Assembly: GCA_029891345.1 (NCBI GenBank)
Contig: CM057006.1
Span: forward strand, 43,623,056 to 43,687,055
Length of the DNA stretch: 64,000 nucleotides
Origin: Dryococelus australis
Lineage: Eukaryota; Arthropoda; Insecta; Phasmatodea; Phasmatidae
Direction of reading: 5' to 3'
The notes under the pieces are model-generated. The model worked only from the letters and a program-made list of their open reading frames with translations. It did not search any database and was not told where the DNA came from. A program made the translations under genes and the position numbers. Positions 16,457 to 58,250 of this stretch are shown here, piece after piece (position 1 is the first letter of the stretch; each line of letters begins with the position of its first letter).

Positions 16457-17124
16457 TTGGGTTTGGCTGTGTTGGGGACACGGCCGTTTGTTTTGCGTGA
16501 ATACGTCTACGTTGACGCGCTCGGGCGCTTTGATGTATTTTTTACGTTTCCGGCACCGCTTCACTAGATTATATGGGTTTTTTTTTTTGGGTATCACTGG
16601 ATTGTTTTTGAGGTGCTTTTTCCAACTGTATACGATTCCTGTATTTCGATTTGGCTTTTTGACAAGTATACGCCGAATTCGTGGTAAGTTTTCTTAATTT
16701 TTTACAGTAAATGCATACAATTTCACTATAACCACGTCACGCAAATGTTTTTATACACGCAATCGACTGATGTTGACGAGAGCTGTCGATTGAAACTCAA
16801 ACGAGCGTCGTAGCTTCTCCTAGTCAAAAGTTATATTACGCGGAAATTATGAAACGCGGCGAAACTAACTCAAAATTGTGGCGCCTCCTTCCCCCTTTTT
16901 TTCCTCCCCACCCCTCTTCCACCCCCGGGGGTCCGCGATGCGTCGCATTCCTCACTCAACGTAACATATTCTTTGATCCTTTGGCATCGAGTAGTATAAT
17001 TGAATTTAGAATGTAGACGATAGATTCGAAGATGCAATGCCAAACTGTATCCGACGATTTTGTCATCATCGGATTTTCTGGATTGCCTCCCTCTATAGTT
17101 GCAAATTTGAAGACCTATTCACAT
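16457..17124 (+). repeat. 650-bp repeat, copy 1
   Basis: Aligns along its length with 51327-51954. Shared blocks include cacggccgtttgttttgcgt, gaatacgtctacgttgacgc, cgacgagagctgtcga-like, cgtagcttctcctagtcaaa and ggattttctggattgcctcc. At 51327 the same unit is embedded in a MITE, giving its limits as about 630-670 bp. A frame over the first part reads AVLGTRPFVLREYVYVDALG in both copies before stops, so a coding origin is possible but unproven. Confidence 0.75.
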
Positions 17125-17489
17125 AAAAAAAAACCCCGCGGAAATGCTTACTGTTGCCATGAACGTATAGTGAGACAGTTAGTAAGTTGTGCGTGTTTAT
17201 TTGACTCGGAGAATTCGACTTATCACAACGAAACAATTAAGTTCCGTTCATAAGCGGATACTACCGAAGTTGCGATCGAAGTCCGATTCTCAACGACAGT
17301 TGCAGAAGTAAAATAAAAACAAAGCAATCGCGTTTGCGTGTGTGTCAGCAAGCCAATAATGATATTACTCTGACTGCGAAACCGTTCTTAGCGCCACAGG
17401 TGCGGATGTTGAAACTTCGTTATAACCATGGAATTACGGATTCTATTTCATGCGGTAGTAGGGGAGACCAGTTTATATAAAGAGAGATT

Positions 17490-18690
17490 AGTAGTAGGGG
17501 TGGGCGGGTCGTGGATACAAAGGGATGCCGCCTTTTTCGTTTGACCTAGTTAATTTAATATCAAATTGATACCAAAGGGTAGATTAAAAGTGTTCATTAA
17601 ATCTAAAGGGTTAAATTTAATGAAAGGATTAACTCTATAGAAAGAGTTGATTTTTTTTTTGGTTCAAGAGTGCCATGCGTCCAATTTATTAGTTTCTTTC
17701 TTTCTTTATTTTTGTGGGTTGGGGAGCAGCTCTGTTAGATTTCAGCACGGCGACTGGCACTAGACTGAGGTGCGGCGTGTTGGGGACGGTGTGTGTGTGT
17801 GTGTATATATATATGTGTGTGTGTGTGGGGGTGGGGGTTAGTTTTGGTGCAAGTGTGGTCTAAGTGTTTTTTTTTTTTGTTTGGTAGTGATCTTGGTCGT
17901 AGACGGTGTTGGTAGATAGGCGACTTCGAATGTTAGTATTAGTCCAAATGCAATTAAATGTTAGAGAGATTCAGAGAATTTTGTGTATGAATAAATTACA
18001 CACGTCGAATCGCAAATTCCAAACTACTGCGTGAATAATAAGTGGAATTACGTGACTCGCCAGTATGAAACTAAACGTAAAGAGATTAATTAGTCTACCC
18101 CGAGCTGTGTGTTAGAAATATAATTTACACAAGGGAGAAGTATAAAGAACGAACACAACTACGTGAGTATGGAATTAGCAATCTACAACAAAATATCCCT
18201 ATAAATTAAACAAACACAATAAGTTATATGATACTACTTGACGCCACTCGCACATACCTTACACATCTGTCTGCCTGTGAGACTGGTGAGGAGGAACTTT
18301 AGAAACGTAATCCACACAAAGCGAGCTCAGTGAAGCACTCTTTGATTATAGACTAAGGTGAAAAACTCGGAAATTTTAAACAAAAAGGAATGTTTCCAAA
18401 TAAATTTAAAAATCACGTAATGAAATGGCACGAGGAGCTCCCCGAGAACACATCTGTCCAACTCGCAGACCAGTCGATGAATGAGTGGATCATATGACGT
18501 GCACCCGCTTATAATCTGTTACATGGAGCGCAGCTGAGTTTGAATTTACGACTGACAGAACCTATTTCATTACCAAGCTACTATTAACGACTTGATTCGT
18601 CCTACAAGTACGTGAATGTATAAACGTGAATTATTTAAAAATAACGGACTAACTACAGATTTTTTCGTCAAGTCTGTTGGAAATGCTACG
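17490..18690. repeat. Left inverted arm of Polinton remnant 1
   Basis: Inverted relative of 22100-22785. It includes a GT/TA microsatellite (17788-17828) and an extra 600 bp or so around 17700-18300 that is shortened in the right arm. Sequence blocks such as gagactggtgaggaggaac and caatgaatgag-like motifs are shared with the arms of the second Polinton at 32242. Confidence 0.7.
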
Positions 18691-19712
18691 AAGTTTCGAC
18701 GACCGAACACAGAAACAGGGTTTACACGATAAACGCACTGTCGCCCGATAAATTCAAGACTTGTAAAAAAAATATTTTATGCTATAGTTTACAAAGACTG
18801 TGAACGAGATCTGAGCAATAATATTGCATAACAAAAATCGCAGCTATCACAATCCAAAGCCTGGTTTATATGAAGGAGCTGTTGAGTTATACATCCACCT
18901 ATTCCATGCTTCTATGAGCAACTAAAGATGGCGGCGACTGTATACAGGGATGAAGATGGCACCTGACCTCTTCCACCCCTAACCAGATTGCGTTATTCTG
19001 TACTTCAGGTTACTCATATCTCTGATATCGATTGTCAATTTTATTGGCAATGTAACAAGATGGCTACGACTGGCTAGATACATCCACGTCGCTCCCGACC
19101 TCCCTGCACCCCCCGCCTCCTCTCCCCCCTCCAACACTGAGTGCATTTTTCGTAGGGATGCTCTGTCCAAGGTCACACAACGCTGTCTGCAAAACCTCTA
19201 CAAGACCAAACACCACGACCCCCAATGTCCACACTGCCTAAGAATGTGTCTTTTATCCGACAACTTCAGGGACTCTCCAACTGGCAAACACCCCTCAAGA
19301 CATCAAGTTGGACTCTTCCAAAACTTTTATTTATTTGCAAAACTACTCTATCCATGAATTGTGGACTCTCCCATTCTGTGACTTATTCCCCTGCCAGCCC
19401 CTTCCCCCGACTCGCCATACCAAGAGCTAGTCAAGAGCCTTCAAAGCTTTGTGGCAAGCAGTGTTTGAGAAAATTCTCGCATTTCGAGTCTTAAGTGTCT
19501 GATCCTTTATTTCCATCGAATACATATTTAACATCTTTTGTTGAAAAAATTATTCTCTTTAGATTAATAACTAGATTAAATATATTAGCAGTAGATATGT
19601 AACTGTATTTACAGAAATGCAATTCATCGTTTCCGAATAACTTTAGCTGTCACGATAAAAATAATTTTTTACGATTCTTCTAGCGAAGCCTGTTAACTCC
19701 CACATGGCGAAG

Positions 19713-19715
<3 letters not shown>

Positions 19716-19771
<56 letters not shown>
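19716..19771. repeat. TA dinucleotide microsatellite
   Basis: About 28 uninterrupted TA units inside Polinton remnant 1, between the left arm and the integrase remnant. Confidence 0.95.
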
Positions 19772-19772
<1 letters not shown>

Positions 19773-20339
19773 GAAAATTTTCCAAAGAGTAATTTCTTTC
19801 ATTGATATTATTAACTAATTTAATGCTACTAAGGAAATGAAAATAATAACATTTGTAACACCAGAAACTAGGCTTACGTCTAGGATGTCAACCCATTCCG
19901 GATGTTTAAGAGGAATTAGATAAAGTAATGTTAGGAAGATGCAATAAACATGAACACAGATTTAGCCGTATCTCTCTTGCTCTTCTATCCTCTCTCTTTA
20001 TAGGCTTGAACCCTAATGTTAACACAGGATTAATATCCCCTTCCTTTGTAATAGGCAGTGCTTATGGAAAATTTAAAAGTTTTCCGCAAAGACTATTGTT
20101 TAAAAATCAAAGTTAAGAAAGAAATAAGTAAGGAATATTTTAAAGGACTGTATAATTTAAATTATTATAAAATGATAAAAAAAAACACAGTGTATTATCA
20201 TGTTAATCCAATTAAACAATAATTCAATCAACAAGGGATTGATTGCAGAATAAATATCAAATTCATCATCTGTCTACAGCTTTATTAATAAATAAATAAA
20301 AACATATACATGATTTAAAATCAGTTATTTAGTATTGGG

Positions 20340-20850
20340 AATTTTTACAAACATTGTATTACAATCTTTTAAGATCTTGATTCTTAACACAGGAGTCATG
20401 TGCTTTAAAGAATCTTCTCCATCGCACCAAGGACATATCTTTCTTCCTTTTAATGATTTTATCAACCAAATATTCATTTGGCGAACTGACTTTTTGCCGT
20501 TCATGCTTGTAAAATCCACCTTTTATTGGTTCTCCATCATAGGTTTCTAGGTAATACGCTCTGAGATGTGTTTGTCTACTTCCAATAATTTGAAATATTT
20601 CAAAAGATCAATTCACCGTAATTTTTATCTCAAAGATCCCTTTCTGCTTCGAGATACATATAAATTCCCCAACTTTGAACTTTGGTTTTATTTTGTCGAT
20701 GAGTTTAACATTATTATAAATAGTTTTAATTAAACTACTATCTGTTACTTCTGTGGGAGCCATCTTGATAGTTCTATGATATCTGGAAAATTTAAATTGA
20801 ACTATTTCAGGCAAAACGTCAACCCATTTGAAAGTCCCCTCGTTGTGAAA
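20340..20850 (-). pseudogene. Polinton-type integrase C-terminus with chromodomain-like tail
   Basis: On the minus strand from about 20847, FKWVDVLPEIVQFKFSRYHR and then TIKMAPTEV match the end of the retroviral-like integrase catalytic core used by Polintons for insertion. KFKVGEFICISKQKGIFE (near 20640) fits the SH3-like region that follows. After a stop at about 20608-20610 a second frame resumes near 20560: YYLETYDGEPIKGGFYKHE, then a chromodomain-like segment YLVDKIIKRKKD with a conserved RW and SCV, ending in a stop near 20363. The N-terminal zinc finger and the catalytic D,D of the core were not found. Only about 170 codons survive against several hundred in a full integrase. Confidence 0.8.
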
Positions 20851-21845
20851 TGTTTATATATTAACTGCTTAATCAATTTGTTGTAATGTTAGTGATTTTT
20901 TACTAGTAATAGGCTGATGAGTTTTTACAGTTTTAATGATTGAAAGTTTAAAGTTGTAACGATTTCAAAGACCCATCATTCAATTTGATAAAAAGTTTTA
21001 CAATTTTAAGAAAAGTTTCCGCAAAACTGGTAATTTAATAATGTTTTGCTAAGAAAGTTAATGATTTATAATGTAAAATGCCGGAAAGTTTTAATAAACT
21101 TTATTGTTTCAATCATAAAATATTGGAAGGTTTTTTCAGTTCGTAATTTTAAATGTTTAAATTTACTGCAGTTTTATGACGTAAGATGGTTATCGGTAAA
21201 AAAAAAAAAAGAGCCACAATGGCTTACACATGCTTTGATAAATATATTTAATGATTTTCAGTCGTAACATAATTTGTTGATTTTTTTTTACAGTTTTATG
21301 GTGTATGATGGTGTTTTGGTTATAAAAAGCCAGAATGGCTTACACATGTAATGATAAATATATTTAATGATTTTCAGTTGTCACATACTCTGTTCTGACG
21401 ATTTTTTAAACGGTTTTATGGCATAAGATGGTGTTTTGGTTTTAAAAAACAGCCAGAATGGCTTACACTCCTAACATGTTGATAAAGGTTTGTAATTAAT
21501 TATATATTATTTGTGATGTAACATGGGTTCCAATATTTTTAAAGCTCGTAAGGTTTTCAATACTACCATGTTTGATGTGAACATGTAAAGAAATGTTTTA
21601 TGATTGTTAACTAAACTATTTGTTATAATTTTTTTTTAAAGAAAGGAATCTTGATTTAAATGTTTTTTATATTAAATTTAAATACTGTGAGTTGTTATTT
21701 ATTAGTTTGAAAAATTCCCCATGTCATTACTTTGTGTTTAATTGGATAAATCTCGAAAAGGCACAAAAAATAATATATATTAAAACACAGTCTGTAGAGC
21801 TGAGTAGAACTTGCAAAAATTATGGAGGGAAACGAACATGTCTGA

Positions 21846-22061
21846 ATGAATGAATTTTTAAACAGAAGAAAGGATAAGGCTTGTATATCTCGAGAAAACT
21901 TTGCTGGACTGTTGGCCAAAAACTCTAGGGATTTTAACAAAACTAAGAGAGTATTCACACAAAAACCTTGTCAATGGCCAGGTAAAATGATCCCATGGTG
22001 TCAAGCCACAATGCTTCTCTGCTGTCATACAACTGGGAGAGTCCAGCCAACCTTTAAATAA
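21846..22061 (+). CDS. Small frame near the right arm, family unknown
   Basis: A 71-codon frame with no domain that I recognise. The end of the frame and its 3' flank (ccagccaacctttaaataaa, followed by aatatttttccttc) recur in Polinton remnant 2 at 42560-42605 (cccagctaactttcaataaa, then aatatttttttctt), where the frame is broken. Conservation at the same place beside the right arm in two elements suggests it is the 3' end of an element gene with its AATAAA polyadenylation signal. It lacks a good N-terminal match, so it may be only the last exon or a remnant. Confidence 0.35.
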   Translation: MNEFLNRRKDKACISRENFAGLLAKNSRDFNKTKRVFTQKPCQWPGKMIPWCQATMLLCCHTTGRVQPTFK

Positions 22062-22099
22062 AAAAATATTTTTCCTTCAACTCGCTTTTTTTTTTTACC

Positions 22100-22785
22100 A
22101 AATGACGTGAATTTCACAGACTTGATGGAAATTTTTTTTAGTATATCCATTACTTTAAATACTTCACTTTTATACATTCACGTACTTGTAGGATGTATCA
22201 AGTCGTTAATAGTATTTTGGTAGGGAAATAGGTTCTATCAGTCGTAAATTTAATCTCGGCCATTCTCCACATAACAGCTTATCAGCAGGCGCACATCATA
22301 CGATTCACTCATTCATCGACTGACCTCCGAGTTGGACGGATGTGTTTCCGAGGAGCTCCTGGTGCCATTTCAGTGCGTGTTTTTTAATTTATTTGGAAAC
22401 ATTCGTTTTGTTTAAGATTTCCGAGTTTTTCACCTCAGTCTATAATCAAACAGTGCTTCACTGGGCTTGCAGCCGGATACAATGTGTTTTGGGAGAAATT
22501 TTATTATGTGTGTTAATCAATTAATTTCTTTTTATGTGTTGATAACGTTTATAAAGTTCCTCCTTATCAGTCTCACAGGCAGACCACAAAAAGAAAGAAA
22601 GAAAAATAAACTAATAAATTATACACTTATGCCACTCTTTCACCAAAAAAAATTTTCTATACATTTAACCCTTTCATTAAATTTAACCCTTGCAATTTGA
22701 GTAATTCTTTTTTATTAACCATTAATTAGGCCAATAATAAAAGGTGGCATCCCTTTGTATTTAGGAACCGCCCGCTCCTACTACT
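22100..22785. repeat. Right inverted arm of Polinton remnant 1
   Basis: Inverted relative of 17490-18690. Starts near tgacgtgaatttcacagact and ends CCCGCTCCTACTACT. Shorter than the left arm because of an internal deletion around 22600. Confidence 0.7.
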
Positions 22786-25030: not shown

Positions 25031-25184
25031 CTTTTGCCAATTCTCTCCACTCTTTTTTCGTTTATCTGTACTGGATTCCCAGGAATTTGTCGTATACAAT
25101 TAAAATTTATAACGTAAGTGTCAAAATTGTATTTACCGTAAATTATATTTAGTTTTTTATGTTAGTCAAAAATAAGACATTTGC

Positions 25185-25562
25185 TATAGGCTGTTCACTG
25201 TTAAGTGAGCATTTTATAAATCAACCTTAGAAAAAATCACTGCTCCTGCTTGCGTATATTTTAACGTGCGCACTGTGTGATATGCGTCCAGGACAGTTGG
25301 TAACGATGGATGGAAAGTAATTCCGTATCTTATCGTCGAATGAAAAGTGTTATGTAACTATTTGAGATCATTTAAATTATTTCTTTCACTTTCTATTTTT
25401 TTTATTGCTTCGAAATTTAAAAATGACCACATTTGGAAAATTATTATTTTTCTGATAATTTCAGAATTTCACTTGCCCGACGCATGAACAAAGTGACGAA
25501 GCCACGACAATGTAAATTTTACATAAGGCGGAAGACTACACAACGTGCATACAAGTAGATCT
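25185..25562 (-). mobile_element. MITE family B copy, 3' end missing
   Basis: Starts TATAGGCTGTTCACTG and runs in reverse through the family B core (aaatcaaccttag, gttggtaacgatgg, ctttcactttct, gccacgacaatgtaaat, cggaagactacacaacgtgc). It stops at gtagatct, where the family would continue taagcaggg plus the terminal repeat; instead the repeat at 25563 begins. About 40 bp of terminus is lost. Confidence 0.82.
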
Positions 25563-29176: not shown

Positions 29177-29248
29177 TTATGGAGGAATGATTGTGTTCCT
29201 GGGTGTCACATCGACGTTTATTTTACATAGAAAATGTTTCAGAGAGTA

Positions 29249-29668
29249 TATATGCTGTTCACACTAAAATAAGCACTTTTGAAAGCTCTGCTTAAGATCT
29301 ACGTGTATGCACGTTGTGTAGTCTTCCGCCTTATGTAAAATTAACATTACCATGGCCCTCGTCACTTTATTCAAGCGTCGGTCGAGTGAAACTGTGAAAT
29401 TAGAAAAGTAAATATTTCACAAATCTGCTCATTCTTACACTTTGGTGCGTAAAAAAACACAAAGCGAAATAAATCATTTAAGTTGTCACAAATGGTTACT
29501 TAACGCTGTTTATCCGACGTTAAGATGTGGAACTATTTCCCTTCCATCATTACCAACTTTACTGGGCGCATGTCACTCAGTGCGCACGTTGAAATATACG
29601 GAGGCAGGGGCAGTGACATTTGTCTAAGGTTAGCTTCAAACGTGCTCACTTTATCGTGAACAACCTTT
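29249..29668 (+). mobile_element. MITE family B copy
   Basis: About 420 bp. tatgctgttcacactaaaat at the left and tttatcgtgaacaacctt at the right are diverged forms of the shared terminal repeat. The core matches 11918-12344 (gctctgcttaagatctacgt, cttccgccttatgtaaaatt, cgtcactttattcaagcgtc). An older copy, judging by terminal mismatches. Confidence 0.85.
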
Positions 29669-30144
29669 AGAAGTATTTTTGTTGCAGTATCACAAAAAAT
29701 TGTGTAAATAAAAAAAAAGTTTTTGGGAAGCCTGAAAATGTGCTCAATCTCTTGGAAGTTACTTACTACCTAAGATGTGCCATAGTAAAGTAAGATAATT
29801 CCTCGTCGAATATACAATACGCTCGACTAATTTCTTTTAAAGCTCAGATAAATCCGAGTAGTGTTGGCATAGTTGATCGTGGGTGCCGAGAAAAGTGTTC
29901 AAAGTAATTGGAATACTGTTTTGCAACTTGGAGGTAGTTGAAAGTGCAGTGTTTTGCAGAGTTGGTATAACCTCCACGTCAAAAGCTGCGAGGAATTTCT
30001 TGTGCACGTGAAATAAAACAATGCGAGTTATGAAAGCGACCTGCAATTATTGTGAAGGTGAGTTGAGCTTCCTTGAATATCAAGATTTTCAGTTGATTTT
30101 GTTTCGAAATGTTACTACTGGGAGGGACTAGGCTCTGTGACCCT
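29669..30144. other. Spacer, no feature
   Basis: AT-rich unique DNA with an A-run (29709-29718); nothing recognised. Confidence 0.5.
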
Positions 30145-32235: not shown

Positions 32236-32241
32236 CCTATT

Positions 32242-33720
32242 AGTAGTAAGGGCGGGCCGGTCCTACCCCAAAGGGGATATCGTTTTTATTAGTGGAATTA
32301 ACCCTTTGATATCAAATGGGTTATCCCTTAATCCGATTTAAACCTATCAAAAATTGTTAATTCTATTTTAATCCCATGGAATTTTTTTGGATTAATTTAA
32401 TCTGATCTTAATTCGAACGATTTTCATTTCATTCTCATAGGATAAAATGATAGGTAACGTTGATGGATTGATCCAATTTATTTCATTGGATTAATCAATC
32501 AAAAATTGTTGTGCAATAAGTGTATAGTTTTACTTCATATTGTTTCTTTTTTTGGGGGGAGTGACTCTGTTACATCCTCACCTTTGAAGCTTTGGCAGTC
32601 GATGAGGTGTGGCATGTTTGGATAGTGTGTATGTGTGTATATATGTGTATATATATATATGCTGAGTTTTGTGCAAGAGTGGCATAAGTGTTAATTTTTT
32701 TGGGCAGACGTTGGGCGATAGACGATTTTTTGGTAATAGTAATTAAACGGAAAGAGAAAGCTATATATAGTTAACATGCAAGAGAAATTTCGGAGTGTTT
32801 AAACGAAATATATATATATTTTTAGTTCTACCTATCAATATAAGTATCACAAGAGAGAAGTATATCAATCACAACTACGTGATTAACCTGGTGTCGACAA
32901 GTGCTAAATGATTATAACTATGTGAGTCTCCAGGTGTCCTAAAAATGACTTAACGAGATACAACAAAGCAAAAATATCCCTATCAATTAAATAGCAGTTG
33001 GCCTAAACACAAAAACAAGTTATTTGAAGAGACGTAAAAAAACAACACTACTTGACGCCTCCAAGTTCTACATGTAGCTGACATGATTTTAAAACACGTC
33101 CGTCCACCTGTGAGACTGGTAAGGAACTTTTGAAATGGAATCTACACATTAAAAGAGATTTATTTATTTATTAACACATGTAAAAAAAGAAAATGTTTAA
33201 CTGTCAGTGATTTTAATATACGTCCATTCGCTCGGGAGGTCTCTGCAGCACTGACTTGGATATACCACTTATGTCGAGTTATAAGCTGAACGAGGTGTTG
33301 AGAGCGAACAGAACCTGCATGTGCATCGGCCTATGTTTGATTATAGACTGGTGCAAATACTATTTAGTGACAAATTGATAAAAATTATGTTTATGATGCA
33401 TGTACTAATATATAAATTACAGTAGTTGAATTAAAAAAACAAATTAATGAAATAGCAAAAGCACCTCTCCCAAAACACGTCTGTCGGGCTGCGAGCTCAG
33501 CCAATGAATGAGACACGTGGCAGGCAACTGATTTGAAATTAGGTCAAAAATCAATAAAAATATCCTATTTAAGAATTATAAATTCTATTTCCCTACCAAA
33601 CTACTATTAATGACGAACAGTTAATCACGTCTTCCTGAATGTTTCACATGAAATTAAAAAAAAAACTCCCCCAGATTTTTAACGTAAATTTCACTATTGT
33701 AAGAATAATTCACTTTTTAC
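32242..33720. repeat. Left inverted arm of Polinton remnant 2
   Basis: Inverted copy of about 42720-44105. Landmarks in order: ggcgggccgg terminus, ttaatccgattt, a GT/TA microsatellite (32627-32660), ctacttgacgcctccaag, gtgagactggtaaggaac, aacgaggtgttgagagc, cacgtctgtcgggctgcgag, aacagttaatcacgtcttcc and gtaaatttcactattgtaag. Confidence 0.85.
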
Positions 33721-34780
33721 ACAAATTTCCATTGAAGCATAGGGAGACTCGGCTGTCATGAAAAAGTACTTAATCCTGCACAGCGTAATCCTGTAACACC
33801 TTATAAAAACACATAGAATATATTTTAAGACACAATCAAACTTCCTCGAAGAAAAAATTAATAATAAAGGATGTACTACAAATTTTCCGTTAAGTCTGTG
33901 AAATTCACAGCACTAGTTAACGAAACGATAGTTGTAAATGCTATAAACTTTTCGAAATTCAAGGGCCTGCCTTATTTGCAGCAGAATAAAATTTCACAAG
34001 TCTTGCCAATGACATTTGTATCCCTAAAGCTAGATTTGACATTCCAAGGAATTTTATATTTTTATCCAATTAACTCTATATTTTAATCCTGTAAACTTAA
34101 TCCATATACAAATACAAGATATATTCTAACTCTCTAAATTTTTTTAAGTAATGAAAAACACAAGTAAAAATTTTTTTTAACAATTGAAAACTTTCGTTAA
34201 ACAAACTCATGTTAAAACCAAATGTCTTTAAATTCAGGGGAATAGTAAACAAACATATTCAAACTGTTTTTAAAATATTTGTGCGTGTTTTTTCGTGTAA
34301 ATTTCTCTAGTTTTCCCAGCCCAGAATTTCGACTGTACTATATAGGATAAAAATTGTATATTTGAACAAATTTTATTTACAAATACTACTTTTTCGACGT
34401 AATATTACTGAAATAGTACGAAACCAGTTTGAAATGACTGCTATTGAAGCTGGATTATGTCAAATTCCATTATATTTCAACTTGTTCTCTAAAACGGTTA
34501 AAATGTAAGCGAATTTGAAGGAAATCGGTGGCCATTTTGAATTCATTTACTATATTTACTATATAAGAAGGGTTAAATTAATTTTTTCTCAGTGTTAAGT
34601 CGTCAACTGCCAAGATCACTTTGTGTGTGTATGCGCGCATTGCATTAGCGAGACTTAGGCTTCTGCAATAGATCTGAGAATGATTCCAGACATCTACGAC
34701 AGGCTTCCACACAGAGAACGACACCATGTGCCCATTACGTCTACAACGCCAGGCATCCATCATGTCTACAATAACACCAG

Positions 34781-35266
34781 GTGTCCACGATAATGTCTAC
34801 AACAATGCAGTATCTACAAGGGATTTCATCTATGCATTGGCCTGCAACAAGTACAATGCATCAATGTCACTGCTGTGACAATTGTGATGCAGAATGTGTT
34901 GAAGTATTCAATGCGATTTTAGCATATGGGAAAGCAAAAATGATATTGAGTTTAGACTATTCTCAATTGCTAGTACTGCCGAAAGTATTTATAATTTCTT
35001 TTGTAGGGCACAAAATAAAACTAGTAAATCCATTCCTTGTTGAACATTTACAAGCTGATGAGGATATTGTATCATATTTGCCATGTGAAGACTGCCCTTA
35101 TGGCATGCCTGCCTTTGCAAAGATGAGAATTTATAGCATATGCAGAGGGAATGTATGTTGCAAAGACTGGAACAGCTACTTGAAAGCTATATCTATTCCA
35201 GATGTAGTAATGGACAATTCTAGAGTCGATGAAGTGGATTCCGAGGCGAGCACTGCGATCTTATAA
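34781..35266 (+). CDS. Polinton-internal frame, family unknown
   Basis: 161 codons, Cys-rich at both ends (CHCCDNCDAEC near residue 29 and LPCEDCPYGM near residue 100, then CRGNVCCKDW). The paired Cys motifs could bind metal but fit no family that I recognise. It follows a low-complexity stretch of atgtctac-like repeats (34690-34810), so the true start may be downstream at residue 52 or later. Expected neighbours in Polintons include capsid and protease genes, but no homology is visible. Confidence 0.3.
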   Translation: MSTIMSTTMQYLQGISSMHWPATSTMHQCHCCDNCDAECVEVFNAILAYGKAKMILSLDYSQLLVLPKVFIISFVGHKIKLVNPFLVEHLQADEDIVSYLPCEDCPYGMPAFAKMRIYSICRGNVCCKDWNSYLKAISIPDVVMDNSRVDEVDSEASTAIL

Positions 35267-36887
35267 ATATGAGTTGAGACTTTTTGTACATAGTGTATAA
35301 TTTGAGAGTTAAAAAAAATAACCTAAAAATTATGTGCTACACACATGGTTTCGAAAACTACCAAGACAACTCCTTTGTAATAAAGGATCTTGCTATTTAT
35401 TATGCAACCGATGCTAATGACTCTTAAGTACTGTGCGTTAAACCCCCCAGACCTTGTTATACTTTAAAACTTCAAGTTAAAATGATGTTTCGGGAACAGA
35501 CTTACGAAAGACGACCTAAAATTGTTTTCTGGTGTCATAGCTTACAAAGAGAGTTCCAATATGTAAACGATGCACTCCTCGAAGATTATCCTGTATATGT
35601 GCTTGGAAAAATGCTGAAGGAAATTTTAAAAAGTTTAACCAATGTAGAAATAATAAATTTCTGAAGATATTAAGACTGTTCGAGTATTAATTCAATAGTC
35701 GAACACTATAATACCAATCATTGTGAGAAAAAATGTTTTATTCCCAATAAACAAGCGAAATTTTAAGAGAATAATTGTACCAGCATCCTTATTATATCTA
35801 AATATTCTAATTTAGAAAAATGCTTTGTTACCTTCATAAGATTTCGAAAAAAAATATGGAAAAATTCAACCCAGAGAAGACATACTACATTATTACTCGA
35901 CGATGCAAGAAAGTATGATTCCAGTCTCTAAACAACATATACTTCCAAATACAGATGTGCAATGGAGATGAACACTGGAATGTAGCATTAAGTTTCGGAG
36001 GAGACATGTATACAGAAAAAGTGTTGTGTTATTAAAAAGATGACTCTGGTTTTTAATAAGTGGCCTGACAGTGAACTGCCCTGTTCTTCTTAGGACCTGT
36101 ATTTTAAAAATAGAAATGAAGAAATAACCAAAGATCCAGGTTTTCATCAAATGAAATATAAATTGAGTATAGAGTTTTACGACAGCCCCACCTTATGTCC
36201 TGAAACACGCAATAATAAGGAAAACATAATTCAAATGCGAGGCAATAGCCAGCTTCGAAGGTCGCCTTGTGGAGTGTAAGAGTGTGAGGTTTGGAATAGT
36301 AATGCTTGTGTGTGTAAATTTGATGTAACCAAGTTAACGTTGAAGAACTAATATCAGCTCAAATTGGAAGAAAATTTCAATATATTAAGAAAAAGAGCCT
36401 GACACTGGAGTTTCAGTTATGATGGAGAAACTCGACTCATCGCTTTCTTATGCCAGTGTTACGCCAGGACACAGATGAGTGTGGTTTTGAATTGAAGACG
36501 AAGATAGTCCCCTACAGATACAGATGTGCAACAGAGATGAACATTGGCATTTCTTGTTAATTAGTCCTTCTTATACTTTAAAAGTTTTCGAGGTATGTTA
36601 TGGACGGAATTCTTTACCTAGGTAAAATTTATGTCCTGACAGCAAACTACCGTGGAATGGCAGTCAACTACATTTGAAGCTCAAAGTGGATATATCAGTA
36701 AATGTGTGTCCTACAAGAAAATCAAATATATCATCCCAAAGGAATGTATTATGGTAACCAAGAATTAACTACTCCCTCTGGCATGTGGAATTGTAAAGTT
36801 TGTCTCAGCAAGACCACTTAAAAATGAGAAAAAAGTGATGACACAACAGCTATATAAAAAGAACCATTCAGTATTAAATGTGCAGCC
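35267..36887 (+). pseudogene. Decayed Polinton interior, no protein identified
   Basis: Contains a 60-codon frame at 35482-35664 (MMFREQTYERRPKIVFWCHS...) and many shorter frames broken by stops. Two separated near-identical snippets, acagatgtgcaatggagatg (35953) and acagatgtgcaacagagatg (36521), each followed by aacact/aacatt, suggest a partial internal duplication. Composition resembles the neighbouring decayed genes. No family recognised. Confidence 0.3.
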
Positions 36888-37335
36888 ATGGCTAGAATCT
36901 TCAACCCTACAGGCATATATGAAGTACTGCAAATAGGACACAGAAGAGTTTTATTTAAACCATGTGGCAGTATTTTACAACTTCATGGCTGCAACAATAT
37001 AGAACATTGGTGCTATAATTTTAGTAACAATCTTGCCATTCACATTGGTGAAGTAATAGCATTCAAAGATTGTGCTGTAAGATATCTTCGCCCCAACAGT
37101 GACTTACCAACAACATTAGAAGATTTGATGATTGCCAGTCCTTAGTGAGGAGAAAGAAGTGGTGTGTGGAAATGAAGTAATCGCCTACCAACTCACCAGA
37201 CCTCACCAGGGAACCACAATCCATTGGAAGGAGACCTGCAATGGGGACATCCACAACTTTATTTTCATGCAAGGAGGATTAATTTTTTCTTCCATGTGCA
37301 ACTTATATGCATTTGAAGTTGCTAATGCAGAATAA
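36888..37335 (+). pseudogene. Polinton-internal gene remnant, one frameshift
   Basis: Two overlapping plus-strand frames, 36888-37145 and 37132-37335, look like one reading frame broken once near 37140. The first reads MARIFNPTGIYEVLQIGHRR with HGCNNIEHWCYNF; the second ends in a hydrophobic stretch FIFMQGGLIFSSMCNLYAF. Together about 145 codons. No family recognised. Confidence 0.3.
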
Positions 37336-38599
37336 GGTTCTTGCTTAAATGCAAGTATGTGTTTTTTTTATAAACGCTTGAATTCTGTACATTAAAACAT
37401 AGTATATTCACATTTTGTTGTCAGGAAATGTGTTAGACATTCATTTCAATTGTACGTAAATTCTAAATCTTAGACACCACATAGTAAACCAACTGGTTAT
37501 GATTCTGGTTTAACTAACTGCAATAGTTCAAAATGTCTTGTAAACCAGTACTAACATCACCCCCTTCAGCTCTTGATATCTGACTTACCTCACTACCCCA
37601 CGCACGATATTCTCGACCATCTGCTACCTCGCTTTGGCCACTGGGCGTTAGACAGCGTCGTTCCTAGTATCTTTTCTAAAAACATGCAGCTCGCTCTTCT
37701 GCCTTTCCCAAACAAACAGTACTTTGCTCCTTTCCTCATAAAATTTTCTTTATATAAATAATGTTCTCCTTTGTATTCTATATACATTTATGTTGTGGCA
37801 AGTGAATAAAGTGTGGTTCTTTTTTCTCGGTTTTGAGAACAGTGAGGCACTTCATATTAATTAATTGTTGTGTTGTAACTGTTATAACAAGGAAACAAAA
37901 GAAAATTTAGCTAGCTATAATGAGTGAGCGTAAACGACAAAGTATTGACAGCTTGCTTGAAGATTTTACATAAGTGATTCAGATTCTGCATCACAGATGG
38001 AAAGAAAGTCTACAGCAAGCTATCGAGACAGTGTCCCTTCGTATAAGTGGACACTAGTTAATCTGTTGGAGGATGAAGTGATTCGAGCATGGATTCACTT
38101 ACAAAGAGATCGTCAACAACAAATGATCGAAACATGTCAGTTTCCCCCAAACATGACAAGATTTATCTTTTGAATGATGACTTATTTCTATTAGTAGCGA
38201 AAGATTCTTGTGATTCGGAGAGAGTGCTCCATCTGTCTAACAGCCGACTTTCGAGTCGATTAGAGATATTTCGCCAAGGGAGCTGGAAAACAATCGTTTT
38301 CTGCTTCCCCAGGTTCAGTGGAGCCTTTGCCAAACCTGACATAAGAGCTATTGGCTATGGCATTCCTGGGTAAGCTAACTGATACACAGATAGTTAACGA
38401 TAGGCTTAACAGTGATGCAAATTTTTCTTGTTTTTTTTTGTGATGTGCAAGGTCGCTTTATTAAACTTAATAATGGAATCACCCCAGGCTATTAGAGTAT
38501 TCGTCACCATAGCGGGTTAGTACTTGAAATTCCTCTCGGCGGAAGAAGGCACTACAGAAACCTTCCATTTTCAAAGTTAAGCACTCCCTGTCCTACACT
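37336..38599. other. Polinton interior between remnants
   Basis: AT-rich spacer, then about 37980-38167 is open without stops in one plus frame (SDSDSASQMERKS..., ending MTRFIF). Its closeness to the polymerase suggests it may be the polymerase N-terminal extension, but I see no conserved motif. Confidence 0.35.
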
Positions 38600-40022
38600 C
38601 ATCTGATGTGGGTTAAATCTATGTTGATGACATTGTCCCTTATCTCACAAACAGGCATGAGGAGCTTAGTGCATGTGGATCTGGCTGGAGTCTGCAAATA
38701 TTGATGTACATGGATGTACATTTGTCTCAATACCAGCTGTTCACCATCGGAGCTGTGCAGACTTTCTTATGAAAGTTTATTGCTGATAGGAATGCTTGTA
38801 TCGATGTACACTGCCTGGAGGAAATGTGTTTCCACTATGCTGTTGTAGCATCTTTGGATCCTGCGACACGACACGCCAAGATAATTATTTTGTATCCAAG
38901 TCCTCATGAAGTTTTGAATATTGAAGGTCTATCGACACCTGCAGTCATACAGGATATTCGTAAGTTTGAGGAGAACAATTCTATTTCTTTCAATGTCTAC
39001 TGTGGGGTGGACAAAGATAGCAATATAATTGACGAAACTTGTGATAAGAGCGGGGTTGTCATACTCATGTGTATCTCTCCTGTACATAATGACAAACATG
39101 TGAATATTTTGGCGATTCGTGCTAGTGGAAATGCCACTTATTTGCATTTTCTCTGTATTACAAATTTTTCAAATCTGGTTCGTAGTCAGCTGAGTAAGAA
39201 ACAACGCAAAAGTCATGTTTGTGATTGCCTTTAGTACATTGTTAGCGAGAAGAAACTCGCAAGTCATACTATTATTTGCCAGCAACAAAAAGCTGTCCTC
39301 AGTACTTTCCCCACTGGAAAAAAATGTGCTTGGAATTTAAAGATTACAGCAAACAACAAAGATTGGGTTTCATCGCGTATTGTGATGTTGAAGGTTGCCT
39401 GAAACACATGTCCACTTGCTTACCTAATGATGAAATGAGTAATACAACTACCATCACCCAACATGTTCCATATGCTTGTAGCATTTTGTTTTTTGTTGGT
39501 CTGCTCATGCAATCCAAGTTTATCTAACTATTTTGAGTTTGTAGGTGCCGATCGTATGTACCGATTAGTATACAAATTAGTTGAACTTACAAAGTGGGCT
39601 GTAGGATTCTATAGTGTGATTGTTCTGATGATGCCAAAAACCTCTGCTGATGAAACTAGCTTGGCGGCTTACTCAAATTGTCACATTTGTAAGGAAAAAG
39701 CTCGGTATAGATGATATTGTAGTCGGTCATGACCATCTGATGGGTGAAATCAGAGGTCCCGCTAATAATAAGTGCAACTTAAATTTCAGGCTGCCCAAAA
39801 GACAACTTGTCACAGTTTTTCATAACCCCTGCAAAACTATGATGCTCACTTTATCATAAAGCCTTTGGCTAAACATCATATACATCAACCCAATGGAACC
39901 ATGTTAATCGAAAACCCAGTTAAAATTCATTTGATTGGAATGAACCTAGGGAAATACAAATGCAGTACCAAACAAATTCCCAGTGGAACTGAAATAAATG
40001 GAAAGGCACAATATTTCAAATT

Positions 40023-40057
<35 letters not shown>

Positions 40058-41830
40058 AATTCCAATTCATGAGCACCTCTCCGGAAACTTTGGCAGGCAA
40101 TTTACTATCTGCGCAATTGAGTATCACCTGTTCGATGTTTCCAGATAACACCCAATTCGAATTGGCAAAACAAAAGGGAGTTTTTCCTTATTACTTTATT
40201 AAGTCGCCAGGCAATCTGACGTACAAGTCACTCCCACCAAAGGACACATTTCATAATGTGATGAGAGGCAAAGGCATTAGCGATAAGGATTATTCTCATG
40301 CCCAAGCAGCATAGGATGTGTTCAACTGCATAAACTTGCTGCAATATGCCATTCTCTATTTATGCATGGACATGTGTTTGCTGGCAGATGTATTTGAGAA
40401 TTTCAGGTCAATATGTTTAATTCATTACAATCTTGACCCCGCCATGTACGTCACAGCTCCTTCTCTTTCATGGGACTACTTATTGTCAATGACACGTGCG
40501 CAGCTAGAGTTGTTGACTGACCCAGACATGTATCTTTTTGTAGAACGTGGGGTTAGGGGCAGCATTACCCAGGTTTCAAAAAGATATGCTGTAGCAAACA
40601 ATATTTACATGGGCGAGGACTACAACTGCAGTATGGCATTGAAATATATATGCTATTTCGACTTCAATGGTCTGTGCAGTAATACAATGGGATCCAAGCT
40701 TCCGATTGGCAATCTTTAGTGGATTGAGGACGATGTGTTTTCAACATGGGATTTTTCAAGCATGGTGAATGGCAGTGACACTTGTTTTTTCGTGTAAGTG
40801 GATGTATCTTTCCCTGATGAGTGTCATGATGAACTATCTGATCTGCCTTTGATCCCAGAAAACAGCTCTTATGAAAAAACTTCTTTTGACATTCCTGCCA
40901 CGGGAGAATTATGTTATACACGGGGATATACTGAGGCAGTACTTGAAGTATGGAGCCACACTTGACTCTGTTAATTGTGTTTTGCACTTTCAGCAGAAGG
41001 CTTGGATGGCTCTGTACATCGAGTTCAGCATTGAGAAACGGCCCAGGCTGCGAACGAATTCGAAAAATTGTATTTTTAATTGATGAATAATTCAGTTTAC
41101 GGAAAAACCTTGCAGAATGTCAGCTGGGAAAGAGACATAATATTTGTTTCGAGGTATGACACGATCTATGGGGCTGCAGAACTGATAGGACATCCAAAAT
41201 TCCTGGCAAGGCAGATTATCAATAAAAACTTGGTCATTAACAAGATATCAAAGGGATCTGTTGCATTCGACAAACCTTTTTACACTGGTGTTGCCAATCC
41301 TGATCTTTCTAAATTAACCCTCTATGAGTTTCATTATCAATTGGTGTGTACAAAATTTCTTCCACCAGCCTTACACCTCCTCTATTGTAATACATATTCC
41401 TTTGTGTATTCTGTTGCTTTTATCACATTTATAAAGTAATTACCCCACATTTAAAGCGGCAGTTTGATACATCCAACTATGTGCTCGATAATCCGCAAAG
41501 ATTCCCTCACAAGAATCAGACTGTACCAGAGCGATGAAAGATGAATGTGCTGGATGCATCATCACACACTTTGTGGGTTTACATCCTAAGCTTTATGCAT
41601 ATGTTGATACGAATTAGTAGTGTATACATAAGGCAAAGAGTGTAAAACCTAATGCATTACAGTCACTTAGGTACGAGGATTATCGAGATTACCTCGAAAA
41701 TTGCACAAAGTATTTGGGAACCCAATATCAGTTCCATTCATGTGATCACAAAGTCTACACCGAACATGTAACCAAAGTAGTGTTGTCAGGTATGGGTGAT
41801 AAGCTTGGGGGCACTACAGAATACCTAAGT
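38600..41830 (+). pseudogene. Polinton protein-primed type B DNA polymerase, decayed
   Basis: Remains of the element's replication polymerase (family B, protein-primed, as in Polintons and adenovirus-like polymerases). Open pieces in order: 38824-39234 (N-terminal region with FEENNSISFNVYC and VRSQLSKKQRKSHVCDC, a degenerate zinc-finger start), 39276-39859 (exonuclease-domain region; VGHDHLMGEIRGPANNKCNL is a degraded Cys/His block), 39865-40059 (ending in a T-run, 40027-40054), 40069-40719 (LPPKDTF, GISDKDYSHAQ, CLLADVFENFR, DFNGLCS), 40871-41083 and 41080-41439 (MNNSVYGKT, FDKPFYTG, LYEFHY). The C-terminal part continues to about 41807 across stops. The palm motif expected as a D-T-D-S core reads N-T-Y-S at 41389-41400, so both catalytic Asp are gone. 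About 1,070 codons in total, normal for this family. At least eight frame breaks or stops. Confidence 0.88.
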
Positions 41831-41839
41831 AATTTTTTT

Positions 41840-42342
41840 TATTTTCTCACTGCATTAGTTACAGCACCACAATAAATACAGCTAACCCACAACACCACAA
41901 CTTCCATCATCACACCACCAATGGCATCCATCTGACACTACTACACGCACCTCCTGTTCCACAACCATCATCACAGCTATCTGCAGCTACCCACAATATC
42001 TGCAGATATCTGCAACTGTTCGCAACACATGTTGCATCACCATCAATGCTGCTGCTACCTGTTTGCCTAACTCTAAGGCATGACAGAACTACAGTAGCAG
42101 CATACTTTATACTACTGTCTTCGATATCTTTTCTCCTTGTCAAATAAGAAGAAGAAATTCACAGTATAATATTACATCCTTTGGAACCTATGTGCATTTG
42201 AGTGTGCTGTAACCAGTCGTTGGCATGTGTATGTGTCTGGAAATTATACTACTTTTTAATTAACATGTCAATTAAAATTTAACCAAACTACTCTGAACGA
42301 CTGAAGGGGGAATCACAAAAGTGATGGAGAAAAGAGTCCAAC
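41840..42342. other. CA-rich low-complexity segment and spacer
   Basis: 41860-42080 is a cac/cat-rich low-complexity stretch (ccacaacaccacaacttcc type). The remainder is AT-rich. It sits between the polymerase and the last conserved remnant; no gene recognised. Confidence 0.6.
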
Positions 42343-42605
42343 ATCTGAATGAATAAATTTGAAATGAAAGGAAAAGGAACTCGTAGTATCTTCAGAAAAC
42401 ATTTGGCAACCTTCTAGTCAAGTTGAAGGTTCCTGGGGAACATTGCGAAACTGAGAGTCAAGTGACACAAATACCTTTTTAGAGCCGGGTAGAAAGAGTT
42501 CTTAGTGACACACCACAGCTCCAAGAATGTTTTCCCGCTGCCCTTCAAAACTACAGCTGCAAGAGCCCAGCTAACTTTCAATAAAAAAAATATTTTTTTC
42601 TTACA
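42343..42605 (+). pseudogene. Broken counterpart of the 21846-22061 frame
   Basis: gaatgaataaatttgaaatg at the start parallels gaatgaatttttaaacagaa in Polinton remnant 1, and the end parallels it through agctaactttcaataaa with the AATAAA signal and the A/T-rich tail. In-frame stops break it. It marks the end of a plus-strand gene just inside the right arm in both elements; function unknown. Confidence 0.45.
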
Positions 42606-42719
42606 GCAACGAGATTAATACTTCGCCTGAGGAATCACCACGGTGATACCTGCTGGTAAAACACATTCATAGTTTATACAAACTCAGAAAACAAAATTAA
42701 AAGGTTTTTTTTTTAAATT

Positions 42720-44105
42720 CCTCTCTTTCAAAAACATTAATTCTTCATCTTACAATAGTGAAATTTGTGTTAAAATCTGCATAAGTTTTTTTTAATTTCA
42801 TGTTAAATGTTCAGGAAGACATGATTAAATTGTTCGTTGTTAATAGCTTAGTAAGGAAATAGGTTATGTAATTCGTAAACAGGATATTTTTATTGATTTG
42901 TGATGTAATTTAAACTCTGTTGCCTGTCAGATGTCTCATTCATTGACTGAGCTCGCAGCTGGACAGATGTGTTTTGGGAGAGGTACTTGTGCGATTTCAT
43001 TTTGTGTGTTTTTTTAATAATTGAACAAGTGTAATTTATAAATTATTACGTACATTGTAAAAATAATTTTTATCCATTTGTCATGTAAATCGTATTCACA
43101 TCAGTCTATAATAAAATGTAGGCGAACACACATGCACCTTGGTTTGCTCTCAACACCTCGTTCAGCTTATAACTCGATGTAAGTGGTATATCCAAGTCAG
43201 TACTGCAGCGACCTCCCGAGCGAATGGAGGTATATTAAAATCACTGACAGTTGAACGTTTTCTTTTTAATGCATGTTAATAAATATAAATTATTTTTTTT
43301 ACATGTGGATTCCATTTCAAAAGTTCCTCACCAGTCTCACAGGTGGATGGACGTGTTTTGAAATCATGCCAGCTACATGTAGAACTTGGAGGCTTCAAGT
43401 AGTGTAGTTTTATTTATGTGTTTTCAAATACCTTGTTATTGTGTTTAGGGAGATTGCCCTTTATTTTATAGGGACATTTTTGCTTCGCCGTAGCTCATTA
43501 ATTCCTTTTCTTTAGGACACCTGGATACGTAATTGTGATTGTTCAGCATTTGTCAACACCAGGTTATTCATGTAGTTGTGTTTGTTGTACTTCTCTCTTG
43601 TGTTATTTATTTTAATTGGTAGGTAGAACTTGTTTGAAACATATTTCGTTTAAACTCTTCGAAATTTCTCTTGTGTGTTAACTATATGTCGTTTTCTCTT
43701 TCTGTTTAATTACTATTACCAAAAATCGCCTATCTACCAACAACGACTACAAACAATATCCCACTACCAATCCATAAAGATTAACACTTATGCCACTCTT
43801 GCACAAAACGCAGCACAAAACATATATTATATATACACACACATGCACGCACCCACCCTGTCCCCAACACGCCACGCCTCATCGAGTGCCAGAGCTCTCA
43901 ACCAAAGTTACATATAATTTTATCCGATGAGAATTTTAAAAAAAGATCATATTAAGATCGGATTAAGGATTAATCCAAAATATTTTCATCGTATTAAAAT
44001 CAGATTATGTAGTAATCCTTTTGATATTAATTTGATATCAAAATTTTAATCCGATAAATAAAAGCGGCGTCACCTTTGTGGTATGGCCGGCCCGCCCCTA
44101 CTACT
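42720..44105. repeat. Right inverted arm of Polinton remnant 2
   Basis: Inverted copy of the left arm. Landmarks: cttacaatagtgaaatttgt, tgtcagatgtctcattcatt, cgctcgggaggt-related cctcccgagcgaatggagg, ccagtctcacaggtggatgg, cctggatacgtaattg, ttggagg..caagtagtg, and the terminal ccggcccgcccctactact. Confidence 0.85.
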
Positions 44106-44111
44106 CGTATT

Positions 44112-51132: not shown

Positions 51133-52003
51133 TATAGGCGGTTCACGGTAAAGTGAGCACTTTTGAAAGCGCTTTCATTTCGAATAATATTCCATAGGTA
51201 TATTTTATTTTAGCCGTAGACGTTAACTTCAGAGTTCGGTGGAATATACACTCTGTCTTCATTACTTTCATAGCAATATTTATTTTATAGGGTGGTTAAA
51301 GGATGAAATATGGCTGAAAAGAAAAACATGGGGTGTAGCTGTGTTGGGCACACGGCCGTTTGTTTTGCGTGAATACGTCTACGTTGACGCGCTCGGGCGC
51401 CTTGATGTTTTTTTTACGCTTCCTGCACCACTTCACTCGATCATATGGGGTGTTATGGGTATCACTAAATTGCTTTTGAGATGCTCTTTCCAACCGTATA
51501 CGAATTCTGTATTTCGACTTGGCGTTTTGACTTGTATAGGTCGAAATTGCGTTTTCTTAATTTTTTACATTAAACGCATACAATTTCACCATAACCACGC
51601 CACATACAAATGTGTTTTATGCGCGCAATCGATTGATCTTGACGAGAGCTGTCGACTGAAACTTAAACTATCGTCGTAGCTTCTCCTAGTCAAAAGTTAT
51701 ACTACGCGGAAGTTATGAGACACGGGGAAACGAACTCAAAATTGCGGCCTCCCCCCCCCCCCCCTTCAAGATTCACAGTCCTCACTCAACGTAACACATT
51801 CCTTGATCATTTAACAATCGAGTGGTGTGATTGAATTTTTAATTTAGACAAGAGATTCGGAGCTGCAATGCCAAACTTTATCCCCCTTTTTTATCATCGG
51901 ATTTTCTGGATTGCCTCCCACTATGGTTGCAAATTTAAAGACGTATGCGCGTCAAAAGTAACTAGGGCCTCAAAAGTGCTTATTTTATCGTGAACGGCCG
52001 ATA
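51133..52003 (-). mobile_element. MITE family A copy split by the 650-bp repeat
   Basis: TATAGGCGGTTCACGGTAAA (51133) and, inverted, the end near tttatcgtgaacggccga (52003). The core before 51327 and after 51954 is family A in reverse, and joins at an A-rich site (gaaaaga... / ...aaaagtaactaggg). The 51327-51954 insert is a copy of the repeat at 16457. Confidence 0.85.
51327..51954 (+). repeat. 650-bp repeat, copy 2, inside a MITE
   Basis: Aligns with 16457-17124. A C-run (51752-51764) replaces part of the pyrimidine-rich middle of copy 1. Insertion at an A-run with A-rich junctions is compatible with a retroposed unit, but no poly(A) tail or target duplication is clear. In this copy the first frame stays open longer (51239-51679). 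Confidence 0.75.
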
Positions 52004-56419: not shown

Positions 56420-57056
56420 GCACTTACGAAGAGGGTTGTTGAGTGCGTTCAAGACGACAGAAAAGGAATTTCAGAGCACAGCTGAAAAAGGCTTTTAAAG
56501 CGGTATGTCTCAACATAATACGCGTCAGGTAATTTCAAAAATACTAGAGGACTTTGCATTGAACCTTGTCACAGACTTCCCACTAATAATGTTGGCGTCG
56601 CCGCTTTAAGGCCAGGCTGCACAAATCACGGTCGTATAGGGAACCAAATGCTAAGTTCGGACAAAAATCTCTCAGTCGTTTATTGTGATAGTGTTTTCAA
56701 CTTAGGGCTTTGTTTTTGTTTAAGACTGAACTCATCTAAATTTGTAAACCTCCCAAATTTTTTTTTTGGTTCAAATGTACGTTTTCATTATTAATAAAAT
56801 TGGGACACTTTATACATAATTAAAAAGTGCATTATATTTTAAAGGCTAAACATTGAATGGTTTACTAATGTAGATCCGTTTAATCTTAAACAAAAAAAAA
56901 AGCCTTATTTTAAAACGCTATCACAAAAAAAACCACTGACAGATCTTTGTCCGAATTTATCCTTTGGTTCCCTATACGCCCGTGATTTGTGAAGCCTGGC
57001 CTTAATTTCCGTAAGTACACTCAGCACGACGAGAATACTGTACGCAAGTAATATTT
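56420..57056 (+). mobile_element. Second copy of the TTAA element, interrupted
   Basis: gttgttgagtgcgttcaaga, gaatttcagagcacagctga, ttctcaacataatacgcgtc-like and tgaaccttgtcacagacttc parallel 24655-24830. After the inserted element 56610-57001 the alignment resumes at tttccgtaagtacactcagc and acgacgagaatactgtacgc. Its own termini are degraded. Confidence 0.7.
56606..57005. mobile_element. TTAA-flanked foldback-like MITE
   Basis: Element 56610-57001 (392 bp) with TTAA at 56606-56609 and 57002-57005. The termini GGCCAGGCTGCACAAATCAC and, inverted, GGCCAGGCTTCACAAATCAC continue as an inverted repeat for about 110 bp with few mismatches (tatagggaaccaaa, ttcggacaaa, gtgatag.gttttaa), so a single strand could fold into a long hairpin. 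No coding capacity. The paralogous sequence at 24835 is uninterrupted and serves as the empty site. Confidence 0.9.
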
Positions 57057-57794: not shown

Positions 57795-58035
57795 TGTAGG
57801 TGGTTCACGGTAAACTGAGCACTTTTGAAAGCCCTGCTTAAGATCCACTTGTATGCACGTTGTGTATTCTTCCGCCTGTAAAATTAAACACTGCCATGGG
57901 CCTCATCACTTTATTGATATATACGTCGGTTAAGAGAACATATGAAATTATTAGACAATTATGTATTTTACAAGTATGCATTAAGAAAAAAAGAGGAACG
58001 AAATAAATCATTGTAAGTTATCAGATATATTTACC
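57795..58035 (+). mobile_element. MITE family B copy, 5' half
   Basis: taggtggttcacggtaaact, gaaagccctgcttaagatcc, acttgtatgcacgttgtgta and gccatgggcctcatcacttt match the first half of family B. The copy stops at 58035, where a family A element begins; no 3' half follows. Confidence 0.82.
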
Positions 58036-58250
58036 TATAGGCTGTTTACGGTAAAGTAAACACTTTTGAGGCGCTAGTAACTTTTTCCTGTCAGCCATTA
58101 TTTATCCTTCAACCACATTTTATTTAAAATCAATAGTGCCATGAAAGTAACGAGAACGGTTTGTATATTCCACCGCACTCGGCAGCTAACGTCTAAGGCT
58201 AAAATAAAATATATTTATTAATTATTATTTCACGAGAGGGCTTTAAAAAA
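58036..58250 (+). mobile_element. MITE family A copy, 3' truncated
   Basis: TATAGGCTGTTTACGGTAAA followed by the family A core (gcgctagtaactttttcctg, gccatgaaagtaacgagaac). It reaches gagagggcttt and then ends without the right terminal repeat, so the final 30 bp are lost together with the 3' half of the family B copy it interrupts; one deletion could explain both. Confidence 0.8.

Follow-up and report, generated by a model that had tools for sequence, protein, structure and literature searches.

A decayed Polinton-derived element in the stick insect Dryococelus australis and a probable capsid-less sub-lineage of its relatives

When a Polinton in an animal genome offers a polymerase as its only recognizable gene, is it an ordinary element ruined in place, or a member of a lineage that gave up its capsid? 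We examined this question at one locus of Dryococelus australis, in a stretch of 64,000 nucleotides (C14:43623056-43687055 of a 3.415 Gb assembly; hereafter the window, in whose positions coordinates are given). A preliminary description made from the sequence alone had read an 11.9-kb Polinton there and had left the choice between a decayed standard Polinton and a reduced lineage. Both proposals were partly true: the copy, here called element A, is old and internally deleted, yet it groups with three relatives (C6, C13 and C12-left) that are without its deletion and show no match to capsid, protease or integrase-like pieces. On balance, element A is probably an old, internally deleted copy of a capsid-less, self-copying sub-lineage derived from Polintons, with integration borrowed from relatives. 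As judged from gene content, this sub-lineage appears to keep Polinton ends, long inverted arms, a Polinton-type PolB and a block of genes without known family before PolB, and to be without capsid, protease, PLA2 and integrase-like genes.

Element A is 11,864 bp long and has the termini AGTAGT...ACTACT, in agreement with the AG..CT ends reported earlier (Table 1). The interval first given for it, 32236-44111, included both flanking hexamers. These hexamers, described as near-matching, agree at 5/6 positions, and by plain arithmetic such agreement is expected in about 0.5% of random hexamer pairs. The inverted arms, put at about 1.4 kb and about a quarter of the element, measured 1,477 bp and 1,375 bp, aligned well beyond their short ends and made up 24% of the element. 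Arm identity by blastn was 80% over a 1.17-kb block and 70% over the outer 220 bp, and a gap-friendly aligner, which flatters identity upward, gave 85.5% over 1,303 columns (Kimura two-parameter distance, K2P, 0.162). The arm alignment scored 1261, whereas none of 20 shuffles scored above 33. At a drift rate of about 3e-9 per site per year, and given equal arms at insertion, the K2P distance would place the insertion roughly 25-30 million years ago, an estimate sensitive to arm-to-arm conversion and to the choice of aligner. The ends with their 6-bp duplication, the terminal inverted repeats and a Polinton-type PolB were all found, which bears out the Polinton affinity first proposed.

PolB of element A is broken into several frames. 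Its open reading frame (ORF) 40315-40719 matched PF03175 with an E value of 2.4e-5 and 23.9 bits, under the Pfam cut-off of 25.8, and matched 34 of 37 candidate proteins of a large protein search (E 5e-34 to 1.7e-11). The gene was collinear with all 11 other PolB loci examined. PolB of one relative, L041, matched PF03175 at E 7e-20 and has the aspartates of what we take to be motif C, which are missing from element A. The earlier statement that only a polymerase is identifiable stands for known families and fails for two other frames, which belong to genes found in relatives: ORF 34775-35266, without a Pfam match or a homologue in the large protein search, and frame 36858-37145, a piece of a gene here called x4, also without a Pfam match. 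Whole-frame Pfam scans of the interior, with X at stops, gave no match and missed even PolB, so this negative is uninformative. A search of solved structures with a PolB piece as query gave no match, and viral-contig and genome-contig collections scanned for PolB or the major capsid protein (MCP) gave no confirmed relative. Element A is a real, old, broken copy.

Table 1 Features of elements A and B, in window positions.
Feature	Position	Strand	Basis
Element B	17490..22785		Sequence comparison: same ends as element A, related arms; flanks GAGATT/TACATT agree 4/6
Integrase-like pieces inside element B	20359..20853	-	62% identity to C9 piece; presumed label, no Pfam support
Left flanking hexamer CCTATT, target-site duplication (5/6)	32236..32241		Letters read
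Element A, decayed Polinton-derived, PolB type	32242..44105	+	Ends, arms, flanks; C6 with same boundaries
Left inverted arm	32242..33718	+	Arm alignment
ORF of 163 amino acids (aa), gene without known family	34775..35266	+	Relatives in C6, C13, C12-left, L029
Piece of gene x4	36858..37145	+	Intact 148-aa frame elsewhere, in 9/12 selected copies
Junction where ~4.5 kb of C6 is missing	37551..37564		Comparison with C6
Region immediately upstream of PolB	38294..38721	+	Related to C5 stretch ("U"), E 4e-7 and 6e-24
PolB, several broken frames (ORFs 38773-39234, 39246-39527, 40060-40314, 40315-40719, 41080-41439, 41621-41875)	38773..41875	+	PF03175, homologues, collinearity
Stretch adjoining right arm	42270..42597		Sequence comparison: 63% identity with 21768-22073 of element B
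Right inverted arm	42731..44105	-	Arm alignment
Right flanking hexamer CGTATT, target-site duplication (5/6)	44106..44111		Letters read

Relatives were sought with the left arm of element A, as the preliminary description had advised; 40 of 5,485 first-look candidates were scored and gave 90 matches, and six paired copies (ten stretches) and two further regions were compared. The closest fetched relative, C6 (C6:23943761-23962204, 18.4 kb), is about 75% identical to the interior of element A and has the same boundaries, with AGTAGT...ACTACT ends and a perfect 6-bp duplication (TACAAT/TACAAT). It aligns with element A on either side of 37551/37564 and carries about 4.5 kb extra at that point. 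C13 and C12-left are collinear with C6, and L029 holds most of the extra stretch but is without PolB. One frame of L029 (2545-2889) passes PF05144, the N-terminal family of phage replication protein G2P, with 23.3 bits over a cut-off of 21.7, possibly by chance. The arms had been called unusually long; long they are, but in the other six paired copies the longest aligned inverted block was 0.9 to 2.2 kb, and such arms are usual in this family and alone no surprise. At the right ends of L024, L026 and L028 (C9, C5 and C4), stretches of the left interior of element A recur inverted beside the right arm, so that arms vary in length or composition from one family member to another. Both the PolB type and the capsid type share one arm family.

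Twelve elements were searched with pieces of each gene. Four of them (A, C6, C13 and C12-left) had PolB and no capsid or integrase-like match, whereas five (B, C9, C5, C4 and C12-right) matched integrase-like or capsid queries but showed no catalytic core of PolB. L029 had genes without known family only, L030 none of the tested genes, and C1_387 (C1:387.54 Mb) PolB and capsid genes together, its integrase region lying outside the fetched stretch. For integrase-like, PLA2, PX, protease, minor-capsid and MCP pieces, nothing fell below E 0.1 in the four PolB-bearing, capsid-less elements. The best E values of the integrase-like queries were 4 in A, 2 in C6, 6 in C13 and 0.7 in C12-left, compared with 5e-46 in B; for protease nothing fell below E 1; and MCP had no match in these four and strong matches in C9, C5, C4 and C1_387. 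Most pieces of the capsid/integrase set matched strongly in C9, C5, C4, C12-right and C1_387; in this search C4 had no integrase-like piece and C12-right no MCP. C5 retains the stretch upstream of PolB, and the best PolB match in C9 had an E value of 0.007. In the relatives, the MCP label, denoting a double-jelly-roll (DJR) major capsid protein, comes from PF21738 (8e-23, 1e-21 and 8e-21), the PLA2 label from PF08398 (1.6e-9 and 5.7e-10) and the protease label from a weak match to protease family C5, of the adenovirus-type cysteine proteases (E 0.088); the integrase-like piece had no homologue in the large protein search. Integrase, protease and capsid genes had been described as seemingly absent from element A, and pieces of all three indeed found no match in it. 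Because C6, C13 and C12-left carry the same cargo and show the same lack of matches, these gaps are apparently not explained by decay of the element A copy alone.

Linkage of these genes was examined among the best 150 matches to each (PolB of 15,584 candidates, x4 of 5,748, the gene adjoining MCP of 8,116, and MCP of 10,149), a sample of best matches and not a census. Within 15 kb there were six PolB-x4 pairs and six pairs of MCP with its neighbour, each count including one query-source copy, against backgrounds of 0.14-0.27 each; PolB-MCP, x4-MCP, PolB-neighbour and x4-neighbour pairs all numbered zero. In the five further PolB-x4 pairs both genes lay on the same strand, with x4 2.1-8.1 kb upstream of PolB. 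At greater distances PolB paired twice with MCP (20.7 and 25.4 kb) and once with the neighbour of MCP (28.8 kb), x4 paired once with each of these two genes (15.5 kb from MCP, 22.5 kb from the neighbour), and one PolB-x4 pair lay on opposite strands 19.1 kb apart. We also probed 1.6 kb of sequence 7.0-8.6 kb upstream of ten of the 11 PolB copies that ranked highest behind element A (for the eleventh, C12:95538003, x4 was already listed beside it), and four of the ten probes carried PolB-type sequence.

The copy with both modules, C1_387, was reached through one of these probes (L087). Pieces of PLA2, PX, protease, minor-capsid and MCP genes lie in the 5.6 kb that extend from the probe in the direction of PolB, together with relatives of two PolB-type genes and the region upstream of PolB; all are on the + strand, and PolB comes next. 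Both shared genes lie between MCP and PolB (36% identity, E 7e-12; 42% identity, E 2e-10). A strict two-part family, in which no element has both PolB and the capsid module, is refuted by this copy, where MCP, PLA2 and PolB stand in one run. With the two shared genes in that place, the PolB type resembles such an element minus everything to their left. The comparison suggests that the PolB type is a C1_387-like element without everything left of the shared genes and with extra genes between them.

A history of this kind would begin with a complete Polinton from which everything to the left of the gene following MCP was lost, the resulting type having extra genes between the two genes still common to the capsid-bearing copy; element A would afterwards have undergone a further loss of about 4.5 kb and decayed where it stood. 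By analogy with the known mode of Polintons, PolB would copy a linear free form from the arm ends by protein priming. The shared AGTAGT...ACTACT ends may then let the integrase of sister or complete elements, supplied in trans, insert the copies with 6-bp duplications. Packaging in borrowed capsids might also be possible for the undeleted form, because without the deletion of element A it is about 18 kb long.

A plain competitor is that element A was an ordinary complete Polinton, and that deletion and decay removed the genes for capsid and integrase from this single copy. The 4.5-kb deletion relative to C6 and the broken frames speak for it, as do the coexistence of capsid genes and PolB in C1_387 and the erosion of 96% of vertebrate Maverick loci given in a passage of PMC8097293. 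However, C6 has the 4.5 kb that element A is missing and still shows no capsid or integrase-like match, C13 and C12-left follow the same pattern, and x4 and PolB are linked at five more places; we consider single-copy loss improbable. A two-part system merits about as little belief. In it, elements of the PolB type and of the integrase/capsid type, alike in their ends, would need one another, and the complete copy would be a leftover or the product of recombination. Such a system would account for the lack of any cross pair within 15 kb in four comparisons, where the two controls had six pairs each, for the 5/12 elements that matched integrase-like or capsid queries but not the PolB core, and for the arms shared between the types. 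Yet both modules stand collinear in the single copy C1_387, PolB of C5 may simply be deleted since the stretch upstream of it is retained, and the linkage counts come from the best 150 matches per gene. Least credible, and in our view very unlikely, is that the PolB-type genes without known family are strongly diverged capsid genes, so that the lineage would not be capsid-less at all. Several similar-looking frames do stand in a row, x4 has a substitution ratio of 0.34 (see below), and no function or fold was found for these genes; but two of them have relatives in C1_387, where a DJR MCP is present next to them as a gene of its own, and are thus extra genes there, and x4 had no match in Pfam, its structure model (mean pLDDT, the predicted local distance difference test score, 38) being too poor for a fold search.

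The capsid-less sub-lineage that we prefer is favoured by the ends, arms and flanks, the perfect duplication of C6, the shared gene content of the collinear C6, C13 and C12-left, the PolB-x4 pairs, the four probes with PolB-type sequence, the two genes with relatives in C1_387 and the arm family common to both types. Also in its favour are the ratios of nonsynonymous to synonymous substitution (dN/dS) of x4, 0.34 (dN 0.103, dS 0.298; 16 stop-free of 20 fetched copies), and of PolB, 0.28 (6/11 loci with long enough frames); the gene adjoining MCP had 0.36 (14/14, all chosen from places listed without stops). Several observations weigh against it. The copies behind these ratios were selected for protein similarity, and many of them for long open frames, which biases the ratios downward. 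The 148-aa frame of x4 had the same start and stop in 9 of 12 copies, all 12 picked for long frames, and between the old copies C6, A, C13, C12 and L029 the third-position excess was weak, and absent in some segments. The far arm of C13 was not found, and C12-left has no normal right arm and is joined at its end to an element of the integrase/capsid type; only C6 was seen with both ends and without such a deletion. Among the upstream probes, L087 matched capsid-type DNA at 74-78%, L091 (C8:1482313-1483913) gave a distant integrase-like match of 28-39% identity and is perhaps another Polinton family, and 4/10 matched nothing. No ATPase piece turned up or was among the queries, and the integrase, minor-capsid and PX labels in the relatives are our presumption, without Pfam support. 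A wider picture is tentative and on present evidence rather unlikely. In it, the Polintons of stick insects would be dividing into interdependent kinds: a PolB type that copies itself, has accessory genes of its own and is without a capsid, and integrase/capsid types whose polymerase no longer works. Through their shared ends each would serve the other in trans, beside some remaining complete copies of the ancestral form.

The window holds a second element with the same ends, element B, which appears to be an integrase-bearing relative of element A, the integrase-like label being our assumption. A direct repeat of about 690 bp (80% identity) lies at 16447-17129, near element B, and at 51319-51957. 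A dispersed repeat of about 400 bp occurs at four places on both strands with 78-81% identity (11916-12342, 25153-25562, 29247-29699 and 59729-60144), with a partial copy near 57803-58048, and the 400 bp at 56606-57005 match their own reverse complement at 76%. Among the relatives, L034 (5780-6800; C12 at about 7.639 Mb) passes from a PolB-type element into inner left-arm pieces and genes of the integrase/capsid type in the same orientation, a junction that could be a fusion or a deletion joint.

As far as titles and the beginnings of abstracts tell, most subscription papers lying outside this scope, we found no integrated capsid-less PolB lineage of Polintons described from an animal. The main text of the D. 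australis genome paper contains no mention of "Maverick" or "Polinton" (PMC10268593), and a passage on stick-insect Mavericks counts repeats without giving gene content by sub-lineage (PMC5691397). The nearest relatives by description are the animal Polintons/Mavericks, which in passages of PMC8097293 have (AGT)2//(ACT)2 as their commonest ends, 6-bp duplications, long inverted arms and PolB, like element A. For intact vertebrate Mavericks a length of 12.7-24.6 kb is given there, and arms of 46-1,447 bp with a mean of 402; intact animal elements have eight core genes, among them those for capsid, protease, ATPase and integrase. The ends of element A are canonical, and its left arm is a little longer than the longest of those arms; its type differs from intact Mavericks in having no match to the tested capsid, protease and integrase-like pieces and in arms at the top of the range. 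Bidnaviridae also have a protein-primed PolB related to that of Polintons (PMC4061559); these are single-stranded DNA viruses, and their likeness to element A is one of description, not of sequence.

Polintons may lead the life of viruses or that of transposons, an open question on which a capsid-less sub-lineage bears; the interest of element A lies in this sub-lineage and not in its arm length. A sub-lineage that kept PolB and its ends and shed its capsid, with its genes still under selection, would, if real, offer a natural test of the virus-to-transposon (or satellite) transition in an animal. The nearest stated parallel is found in the cytoplasmic linear plasmids, which in the relevant passage derive from (proto)polintons through loss of the morphogenetic module with the protein-primed polymerase kept (PMC11071308). 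Those are free plasmids, whereas element A and its relatives sit in the chromosomes of an animal as integrated copies, flanked by Polinton duplications. The sub-lineage would, if real, resemble in its origin what has been proposed for these plasmids, and the same genome offers capsid-bearing sisters to compare it with.

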